From the NCBI RefSeq assembly GCF_019458025.1, contig NZ_JAHZUY010000003.1, forward strand, positions 62,001 to 126,000: 64,000 nt of DNA. Reading direction: 5' to 3'. Both the position numbers and the translations under genes were made by a program. Below the pieces are notes generated by a model. The model worked only from the letters and a program-made list of their open reading frames with translations. It did no database searches and was not told the DNA's origin. Each line of letters begins with the position of its first letter. Position 1 is the stretch's first letter. Shown in pieces: positions 39,439-42,100 of the stretch. The DNA comes from Caldovatus aquaticus. GTDB taxonomy: Bacteria; Pseudomonadota; Alphaproteobacteria; Acetobacterales; Acetobacteraceae.

Positions 39439-39951
39439 TCAGATGCGCTCGGGATTCCCGCGCAGGAGCTCGAAGCGGGTCGGGCTGATCGCGCCCGAGA
39501 CGTCGATCGCCACCAGGGACTCGCCGAGCCGGAACCAGGCGAAGCAGGTCGGTCGGCCTCCCTCGATCTTCTCCCAGCTCGAGCAGACCTCGTCGCCCTG
39601 GACGACGACGCGCCCGCGGTCGGTCGCCGTCTGGCCGCCGACGCCGACGAGCCGCAGCCGCTGCGAGCCGTCGGCGGCGATGTGCATCGTCAGCCGGCTG
39701 CCGTTCGGCAGGCGGCGGTCGAGGGTGTTGCCGAACACGAGCCGGCGGAACTCCTCGCCCGAAAGGCGCTGGCCCCCGACCACCTGGGGCACCGGCCGCG
39801 CCGGTCCGGCCTGCGCGGCGCTCGCGGCGGGCTGCGCGGGGGAAGCCGCGCCCGGCTCGGGGCCGCCGGCGCAGCCGGCAGCCGCCAGCGCCAGCGCGCC
39901 GCTCAGCAGCAGAAGGGAGGTGCGCATGGTCTCGGAAGTCTCCTGGTTCAT
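39439..39951 (-). CDS. Small lipoprotein at end of amyloid-like locus
   Basis: A 170-residue protein with a lipobox (LAAAGC, Cys about 27). After an Ala/Pro-rich linker comes a beta-rich domain, 'LSGEEFRRLVFGNTLDRRLPNG', 'EVCSSWEKIEGGRPTCFAWF', with a Cys pair. This resembles small periplasmic 'GNT' domains of the DUF995 kind. Its start overlaps the stop of the preceding small gene. It may be the last gene of the amyloid-like operon or an unrelated neighbour. Confidence 0.78.
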   Translation of the reverse strand: MNQETSETMRTSLLLLSGALALAAAGCAGGPEPGAASPAQPAASAAQAGPARPVPQVVGGQRLSGEEFRRLVFGNTLDRRLPNGSRLTMHIAADGSQRLRLVGVGGQTATDRGRVVVQGDEVCSSWEKIEGGRPTCFAWFRLGESLVAIDVSGAISPTRFELLRGNPERI

Positions 39952-40328
39952 CGCAGCACGCGAGAGGTCGCGTTGACCACCCCATCCTGCGGCGGAAGCG
40001 GCTGCGGCGGACGCCCGATCTCGTCCCAGAAGCGGATGCTGGCGTTGACGCCGGGCGGCGCCAGCGGGCGCGGCGCGTCCTGTCCGCCGCGCATCCGCCC
40101 GAGCGTCGCCGGCGCGAGGGGTTCCAGCCCCTCGAAGGCGTGCGGGGCGGCGTTGCCGGTTGCCGCGGGGGGCGGCGCGAGCGCCTCCGCCAGCAGGGAG
40201 ACCTGGAAGGCGGGCGGGGCCCGGCCGCTCTCCTCCGCGCGCAGGGCACGGCCGCCCGCGCCCAGCGCAGCGACCAGCGCCAGCGCGGCGCCGAGCCGGA
40301 GGAGAAGGGAAGGGCGCCCGGCCCTCAT
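39948..40328 (-). CDS. Small secreted protein with double-glycine motif
   Basis: A 126-residue protein with a signal peptide (residues 1-31). Residues 71-82, LAPATLGRMRGG, fit the LSxxELxxIxGG pattern recognised by C39 peptidases; cutting after it would release a 44-residue Pro-rich C-terminal peptide. It overlaps genes on both sides by 4 bases. Lies two genes downstream of a C39-peptidase lipoprotein. No known family. Confidence 0.78.
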   Translation of the reverse strand: MRAGRPSLLLRLGAALALVAALGAGGRALRAEESGRAPPAFQVSLLAEALAPPPAATGNAAPHAFEGLEPLAPATLGRMRGGQDAPRPLAPPGVNASIRFWDEIGRPPQPLPPQDGVVNATSRVLR

Positions 40329-40957
40329 CGCCCGATCCTCGTCCGGGTCATGAGGGCGTTCTCGAGCGCGAACCGGCTCGCGGTGTTGTTCAGCAGGGCC
40401 CGCATGCCGGCGACGTCGAGCGTGACGGTGGTGGCCACGCTCACCGCCTGGCCGTTGGCGCGGTTCTGCACGATGCCGACGATGCCTGCGCCCTCGACCA
40501 CGGTGCCGACCCGGGTCGCGCCGCCGTTGAAGAGGCTTTCCACGACGATGGGGCCCGAGGCGGAGAGGGGCACCTGCCGGGTGTCGCCCTGGGCGTCGGT
40601 GATGGTGACGGCGGGCGCCGCCCCCGGGACGAGGACGGTGGTGGGCAGGACGAGGCGCTGCGCCACCGCGCCACCCACGCGGGTTTCGGTCTCGAAGCCG
40701 AAGGCGACCGCGACCCCGCCGGGCAGGCGGAAGCCGGCGCGCATCTCGCCCAGCGCCTCGTCCGGCAGCGGCACGGCGCCGAGCGCCAGCACCTCTCCGG
40801 CGGGCGCAAGGCGCACGCCGAGCGCGTGCGCATAGGCGGCGACCAGGTCCTGTCCGGGCTCCGCCGGACGCGCCCCGTCGGATGCGGCCCGGGCCGGACC
40901 GGCGAGGGAGAGCCCGAGCACCAGCGCGGAGATGCCGCGAAGGAACGGATCACGCAT
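40325..40957 (-). CDS. Secreted protein of amyloid-like locus, one divergent repeat
   Basis: A 210-residue protein with a signal peptide (1-24). Residues 64-75, LPDEALGEMRAG, again match the C39 double-glycine pattern with Ala-Gly at the cut. 'GGVAVAFGFETETRV' follows. Residues 158-182 ('GIVGIVQNRANGQAVSVATT') align with the Gln/Asn amyloid repeat of the neighbouring proteins. It may correspond to FapA or FapE in role, but the relationship is not clear from sequence alone. Confidence 0.8.
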   Translation of the reverse strand: MRDPFLRGISALVLGLSLAGPARAASDGARPAEPGQDLVAAYAHALGVRLAPAGEVLALGAVPLPDEALGEMRAGFRLPGGVAVAFGFETETRVGGAVAQRLVLPTTVLVPGAAPAVTITDAQGDTRQVPLSASGPIVVESLFNGGATRVGTVVEGAGIVGIVQNRANGQAVSVATTVTLDVAGMRALLNNTASRFALENALMTRTRIGR

Positions 40958-40977
40958 CGTTGTCTCCCCGCGTCGCA

Positions 40978-41757
40978 TCAGAAGAGCCATCGCAGCGGCG
41001 GTTCGCCGCTGTTGAGGAGGATCGGCGAGGGCATGCCGAGCCCGTGCAGGCCGCCGTCCATAGCCTCGCGGACCAGCGTGCCCGGCGCCCGCGGCCGCAC
41101 GCCCCAGTCCTCCGGCCGGTTGAAGCTGGCCTGGGCGATCTCCGGATGGTCGAGGATCACGAACAGCACGCCGCTCCAAGCCTCCTCGAAGCGGACGCGC
41201 GGCATGGTGCGGGTGCCCAGGTTGGGGTCGGCCAGCAGCACGCGGTCCTCGGACAGCCCGCGCACCACCACGAAATGGCGGTAGCCGTTGGTGTCGATCA
41301 GGGCGATGCCCGGGATGCGCGCCTCGGCGAGCCGCGCGAGCGGCAGGCGGTAGCCGTTCGCCCGCAGCCCGCGCCGCGCCAGGTAGTTGCGCATGTCGAG
41401 GAGCGAGAATCCGGCGGTGCGGATCCGCTCGGCGTCGCCATGCGCGATCATGTCGCGCAGCACCTCCTCCTCCGTCGTCGGCAGCCCGTAGTGGTAGGTG
41501 AGAAGGGTGGCGAGGGCGGCCGAGCCGCAGGAATAGTCGAAGCGCTGGCGGATGGTGGTGGCGAAGCGGCGCGAGCGGATGTCGCGCACCGGCAGCAGCA
41601 GGTTGGGGCCGCCGGTCGCGGTCTCGCTCAGCATCACGCGCGCCGGGGCCGGCGCGCCGGCGCCGCCGGGCGCCTGCGCGGCGCAGCCCGCAGCGAGCAG
41701 CGCCAGCGCGGCGATGGCGCCGGCGGCGATGCGCGCCTGGAACCGCTGCCCGCCCAT
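40978..41757 (-). CDS. C39-peptidase lipoprotein (FapD-like)
   Basis: A 259-residue lipoprotein (lipobox LLAAGC25) with a C39 papain-like domain. Catalytic residues visible: Gln71 (oxyanion), Cys77 (DYSCGSAALATLL), His161 (YRHFVVV) and Asp177 (LLADPN). No ABC transporter domain is attached, unlike bacteriocin exporters. A stand-alone C39 protease is the hallmark of Fap loci (FapD), where it is needed for amyloid export. The ATG is 7 bases after the stop of the single-repeat protein. Confidence 0.88.
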   Translation of the reverse strand: MGGQRFQARIAAGAIAALALLAAGCAAQAPGGAGAPAPARVMLSETATGGPNLLLPVRDIRSRRFATTIRQRFDYSCGSAALATLLTYHYGLPTTEEEVLRDMIAHGDAERIRTAGFSLLDMRNYLARRGLRANGYRLPLARLAEARIPGIALIDTNGYRHFVVVRGLSEDRVLLADPNLGTRTMPRVRFEEAWSGVLFVILDHPEIAQASFNRPEDWGVRPRAPGTLVREAMDGGLHGLGMPSPILLNSGEPPLRWLF

Positions 41758-41764
41758 GTCCGCC

Positions 41765-42100
41765 TCAGCGCACGGTGATGTTGATCGCGGTCGTGGCCTG
41801 GAAGAGGGAGTTGTTGCCGGTGTTCTGGAACACAGTGGTGACGCCGGCGGTCCCGTTGAGCGAGCCGGTAATGGTGTTGTTGCCGGTGGCGGTGTTCGCG
41901 CCGACCTGGTTGTTCTGTAGCAGCGCGATGTTGCCGCCCTCCGGGGAAAGCCCGGCGCGTCCCGAGCTTCGTGCCAAATCGGCCGCGTCCATGGGCGCGA
42001 GGCCGGCGAAGGCGTCGCCGCTGCCCGGCGGCTCCGAAGCGCCGGCACCCCCGGCGGCGAGGGACGCGCCGAGGACGAGCGCGAGCAGGACGTGCTTCAT
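41765..42100 (-). CDS. Single-repeat amyloid-like secreted protein (FapB-like?)
   Basis: A 111-residue protein with a signal peptide (1-21). Residues 37-48 are a degenerate C39-type motif (MDAADLARSSGR). The C-terminal half has 'NQVGANTATGNNTITGSLNG' and residues 86-108 'GVTTVFQNTGNNSLF', which line up position by position with the repeat core of the protein encoded just upstream. It may act as a minor subunit or nucleator, as FapB does. Confidence 0.82.
   Translation of the reverse strand: MKHVLLALVLGASLAAGGAGASEPPGSGDAFAGLAPMDAADLARSSGRAGLSPEGGNIALLQNNQVGANTATGNNTITGSLNGTAGVTTVFQNTGNNSLFQATTAINITVR

Follow-up and report, generated by a model that had tools for sequence, protein, structure and literature searches.

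Three small proteins encoded beside a stand-alone C39 peptidase in Caldovatus aquaticus share a conserved leader of the double-glycine type, positioned behind a Sec signal. This leader is probably removed as a propeptide by the periplasmic, FapD-type peptidase, making the proteins competent for export. The genes lie in the window, a 64,000 nucleotide stretch of contig NZ_JAHZUY010000003.1. Double-glycine tags are what bacteriocin-type proteases recognise, and the original prediction that the motif represents a substrate code for a Fap-type protease is supported, in that it is conserved, follows a Sec signal, neighbours a stand-alone C39 peptidase and acts like a code common to several proteins.

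The genes form part of a Fap-like operon on the minus strand, at approximately 46.4-39.4 kb, in the order sigma-54 activator, FapF-like pore, N/Q-rich repeat protein, P0004, P0003, P0002, P0001 and P0006. The activator, P0008 (45149..46363), matches PF00158 (E = 6e-68), and P0007 (43716..45152), a FapF-like outer-membrane pore with an N-terminal coiled coil, matches the FapF model NF058560 under its cut-off (E = 2.6e-47). P0005 (42196..43179) is likely to be the fibre subunit, being an N/Q-rich repeat protein with weak similarity to the FapB/C-like models NF058557 (E = 2e-4) and NF058558 (E = 3e-4). The peptidase P0003 (40978..41757) is flanked by the three motif-bearing proteins: P0004 (41765..42100), which on the evidence of its family alignment combines the motif with an N/Q-rich C-terminal segment; the FapE-like P0002 (40325..40957), so called because its profile matches that of FapE across the motif and the FGF region; and P0001 (39948..40328), assigned by alignment to an 'LWDE' family. 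The last gene, P0006 (39439..39951), encodes a predicted lipoprotein without the motif that is conserved in the operon, its homologues adjoining the same genes in relatives. The C-termini of P0002 and P0004 have in common the N/Q-rich segment GITTVIQNTGNNvLIQ (hhalign E = 2e-10), which resembles those of minor amyloid subunits. No confident Pfam or NCBIfam match was found for the LWDE family, represented in the window at 39948-40328 and at loci L109, L110, L117, L185, L218 and others.

All three genes and their motifs are found where they had been predicted, each on the minus strand. P0001 carries LAPATLGRMRGG at residues 71-82 (40083..40118), which reads L(-12)APATL(-7)GRM(-4)R(-3)G(-2)G(-1) when numbered back from the proposed cut; P0002 carries LPDEALGEMRAG at residues 64-75 (40733..40768), with L(-7), R(-3) and G(-1) invariant across 20 sequences; and P0004 carries MDAADLARSSGR at residues 37-48 (41957..41992), whose L(-7) and G(-2) hardly vary across 24 sequences. 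Each of the proteins has a Sec-type N-terminus ahead of the motif, as judged by eye, in agreement with the signal peptides originally proposed. The consensus can be written [LVIM](-12)-x4-[LM](-7)-x2-hydrophobic(-4)-R(-3)-G(-2)-[G/R/K/Q](-1). The earlier description of P0001 and P0002 as matching the bacteriocin leader pattern, with P0004 as a weaker version, holds with two departures, as the residues at -2 and -1 are GG in P0001, AG in P0002 and GR in P0004. The Ala(-2) of P0002 is found in the genus of the window, with Gly(-2) present in 17 of 20 relatives, and the Gly(-2)-Arg(-1) of P0004 is the same in its close relatives. A strict GG rule is ruled out, with -1 varying while G(-2) is kept.

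A single match to such a motif is unremarkable in isolation: the loose pattern occurs in 4.1%, 14.6% and 5.1% of shuffles of P0001, P0002 and P0004, respectively, and the strict pattern in 0.12% of shuffles of P0001. It is conservation, along with enrichment at held-out loci, that puts the motif far beyond chance. Loci with stand-alone C39 peptidases were drawn from the order, the phylum and named genomes, with the genes at relatives' loci called by a codon-based script that left some N-termini truncated. Conservation in homologues, proposed as a check on the motif, is observed in the P0002, P0004 and LWDE families alike. Among the 20 sequences of the P0002 family, which have identities of 17-68% with the protein of the window, only five columns show no variation at all: M1, L(-7), R(-3), G(-1) and an asparagine, N165. 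Position -12 is L, V or I in all 20 sequences, -7 is L in all 20, -4 is M, I, L or V in 18 and Y in two, and the relatives mostly have GG at -2 and -1. In the P0004 family, L(-7) and G(-2) show almost no variation while the adjacent linkers differ, and -4 is less consistently hydrophobic than in the P0002 family; 22 of the 24 LWDE family members have the motif a few dozen residues upstream of LWDE. When the profile of P0001 is compared with that of either P0002 or P0004 using hhalign, just the motif stretch aligns. The shared stretch is very improbable as a functionless relic of a common ancestral N-terminal segment: the N/Q-rich segment common to P0002 and P0004 does indicate that some of the families are related, but the motif is better preserved than any other part of these proteins, which are only 17-30% identical, and it reappears in FapF and in the LWDE family, with which nothing else was detected in common.

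The pattern [LVIM]x4[LM]x3RG[GRKQA], fixed after the first two sets of loci, was then run on further loci from named genomes, with neighbours defined as small same-strand genes no more than two genes from the peptidase. It is present in 70 of 159 such neighbours, where 200 shuffles gave 0.6 on average and 4 at most, and in 24 of the 663 other genes, more than half of these 24 being FapF-type pores. As these genes are interrelated rather than independent trials, the conservation of columns is the better evidence. Since single loose matches arise in 4-15% of shuffles, the motif might be taken for a coincidence in proteins rich in Ala, Leu, Gly and Arg that are encoded by a GC-rich genome, yet it is also found at loci with a GC content of 41-44% (L110, L127 and L130), and the combination of column conservation and held-out enrichment refutes such an origin, leaving it a negligible probability. 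The P0002 family is present in exactly 19 of the 299 genomes of the order, those with a FapD-like gene at E below 1e-37, and was found in none of the others. This co-occurrence alone is no proof of a protease-substrate pair, because the genes share one operon.

P0003 matches the C39 peptidase model PF03412 (E = 9e-22) and has a lipobox-like N-terminus (...LAAGC), predicting a lipoprotein. Its score against the FapD model NF058616 (152.7 bits, E = 9e-45) falls short of the curated cut-off of 330 bits, making it a relative of FapD and not a member by that model. It has the features of a stand-alone secreted C39, with an intact Cys/His/Asp set beside a FapF-type pore: the catalytic C77 is accompanied by Q71, H161 and D177. 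Among 138 stand-alone peptidases Q71, D74 and C77 are invariant, and H161 and D177 are found in all those having the position. The predicted structure (pLDDT 84) retrieves the PCAT1 peptidase with Foldseek (E = 9e-8), as well as ComA (TMt 0.80) and LahT with its leader peptide (TMt 0.75). D74, three residues before the catalytic cysteine, is absent from the corresponding position of PCAT1 and LahT in the alignment, and is a candidate reader of the arginine at -3 or -1. P0003 is the sole Peptidase_C39 match in the genome and is stand-alone; therefore, by this test, no peptidase-containing ABC exporter is present, and such an exporter was rejected as the reader of the motif.

Related arrangements were seen at other loci. 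At L070-L073 and L140, stand-alone C39 peptidases of a second clade occur with a FapF-like pore and with small, secreted, Tyr-rich proteins of approximately 105-117 aa, in which no double-glycine-like motif was detected. Beside another stand-alone C39, a 133 aa Gly/Ala-rich protein (L139:7283-7681) starts with the bacteriocin-like MLPDRPPHLESIDTSEMDEVRGRFGP, with no Sec signal in the called frame.

The register of the motif is that of known C39 leaders. The leaders read by PCAT1 and LahT have L(-12) and L(-7) in a hydrophobic knot and -4 in a variable pocket; they are helical from -10 to -4, and both glycines reach into the active site, while for LahT E(-8) has no critical role (PMC6959990, PMC6363468). 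The spacing of -12, -7, -4 and -2 is matched here, with the differences that an arginine is added at -3 and that -1 is relaxed to G, R, K or Q. The C39 fold and catalytic residues are likewise common to PCAT1, LahT, ComA and the window peptidase. By contrast, a canonical leader lies at the very N-terminus and meets its ABC-linked peptidase in the cytosol, whereas the window motif lies behind a Sec-type signal: there is no ABC transporter in this system, the substrates cross by Sec first, and the candidates belong to an amyloid exporter, as subunits or as parts of its pore, unlike the peptides of ABC exporters. The structural model of P0002 is weak (mean pLDDT 65), placing residues 66-73 (-10 to -3), in a low-confidence stretch, in a short helix ahead of a beta domain from residue 82. 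Alignment with the PCAT1 groove, assuming a numbering offset of 3, pairs A55 with L119, G135 with V197 and I59 with K/R123; read in this way, the FapD-like groove appears similar to that of PCAT1 but not identical, the knot residue I59 being replaced by K/R123. The residues at the proposed cut argue against cleavage. A GG, GA or GS pair enters the narrow cleft at known C39 sites, while FapE and many P0004 proteins have R or K at -1, and the Ala(-2) of P0002 in the window departs from the G(-2) site.

The unusual -1 residue would be easier to reconcile with a docking tag, bound by the C39 protein as a chaperone or tether and left uncut, and inactive C39-like domains of RTX exporters are cited in PMC5557850. 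Such a role is nevertheless unlikely: the catalytic Q and C are invariant in the 138 homologues, as are H and D wherever the position exists, Gly(-2) is about as well conserved as the docking leucines, and the C38A mutation in FapD abolishes secretion of FapC (PMC5557850). The favoured reading is instead a pre-pro arrangement, with the Sec signal first and the C39 leader second. Following Sec export, the periplasmic, FapD-like stand-alone C39 would bind the short leader helix via -12, -7 and -4 and cut at or beside G(-2)-X(-1), so that the propeptide would be lost from the FapE-like P0002, P0004 and P0001; in many species the FapF pore may be cut too, where its coiled coil ends. In P0001, a cut at the motif would free a peptide of approximately 44 residues.

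Processing would most likely render these parts competent for export through FapF. Cleavage had previously been proposed to trigger assembly, but that it confers competence for export is no less probable: because FapD C38A blocks FapC secretion, the cut probably licenses export, perhaps with effects on assembly later. The N-terminus of FapE is absent from mass spectra (PMC5557850), with peptides missing up to approximately residue 70 in the published spectra, which indicate FapA-D to be without processing. The FapE motif site is near residue 40, and the missing stretch reaches further than a cut there predicts; to account for this, one has to suppose either additional trimming or poor coverage. 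FapD was already recognised as indispensable to amyloid secretion. In the open-access literature the substrate of FapD and its site were recorded as undetermined in papers from 2017 and 2018, although the FapE site may stand in subscription journals; Rouse et al had suspected the FapF linker and FapE on other grounds.

The FapD paper describes the Fap proteins as being without canonical C39 sites, although both FapE and FilA carry the motif. NCBIfam-named FapE proteins and their relatives have the pattern L-x4-L-x3-R-G-[RK], as in LKDQELATLRGR and LKDAEMADLRGR: in all 13, -12 is aliphatic, -7 is L or M, G(-2) is invariant and -1 is R or K. P0002 itself does not match the FapE model NF058559; its profile-profile match to FapE covers the motif and the next 20 residues only, and its phmmer match to one FapE-like protein is weak. 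The Pseudomonas Fap system (FapA-F) resembles that of the window in having a stand-alone periplasmic C39 beside an N/Q-rich minor subunit and a FapF pore, with FapE bearing the same leader as the window proteins, with R or K at -1. The window system differs in falling below the NCBIfam cut-offs, in its additional P0004 and LWDE families and in the predicted lipoprotein anchor of its peptidase. Degenerate copies of the motif are seen in Pseudomonas FapA (LSDGDFASVASG and LSDSDFAGVTSG; L103:10665-11099 and L107:10443-10892), despite which no processing of FapA was seen in the spectra of Rouse et al.

In the Fil system, a putative pilus system comprising FilA with DUF6160, the peptidase FilB and FilC, FilB is again a stand-alone C39, and the adjacent FilA carries MDDAALSGITGQ straight after its signal peptide. 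It differs from the window in having Gln at -1, Thr at -3 and another downstream domain. FilA/DUF6160 proteins with L-x4-L-x3-T-G-Q directly behind the signal peptide are found at L134:7312-7737, L136:7292-7744 and L137:8698-9117. The Pfam DUF6160 model has a weak match to P0004 (E = 0.19), covering just the motif region. A search of the literature on FilB and DUF6160 found nothing useful.

The original prediction named accessory subunits as the substrates. The small proteins do carry the motif, but the term is too narrow, as FapF often carries it too: a copy at the end of the coiled coil is found in 31 of 120 FapF proteins, compared with 0.6 in shuffles. Cupriavidus is among the genera whose FapF has it. 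Homologues with the motif include those at L158, L170, L196, L202, L063, L069, L116 and others, as in VDSEALSRRRGG and LLDSQMAKLRGT, and a cut there would separate the barrel from the coiled coil. A site just upstream of the barrel was rejected, there being no motif within 45 residues; the copies lie further upstream, at the coiled-coil end. The motif was not found in Pseudomonas FapF, nor in a scan of the window pore P0007. That so many FapF proteins bear the motif is odd for a receptor, and bears on whether it might be a targeting sequence for FapF or another periplasmic factor, with the peptidase unconnected. Motif proteins are probably exported with FapF, and Rouse et al suggest that the FapE N-terminus may target it; even so, with a register the same as that of a C39 leader and a fibre repeat protein, P0005, that lacks the motif, targeting is distinctly improbable.

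The preferred reading, a propeptide removed by the FapD-type peptidase, may extend beyond this operon. On balance, the evidence slightly favours a general periplasmic leader code, with the stand-alone C39s of Fap, Fil and related pore systems acting on more than one partner, the pore itself among them. If so, one protease would time both export and the state of the pore. P0004, the LWDE proteins, many FapF pores and FilA are further predicted substrates of FapD-type peptidases, and the conserved site in the FapE of true Fap operons makes it a candidate FapD target that point mutations can test. The double-glycine code would then be one used outside ABC exporters, after Sec export.
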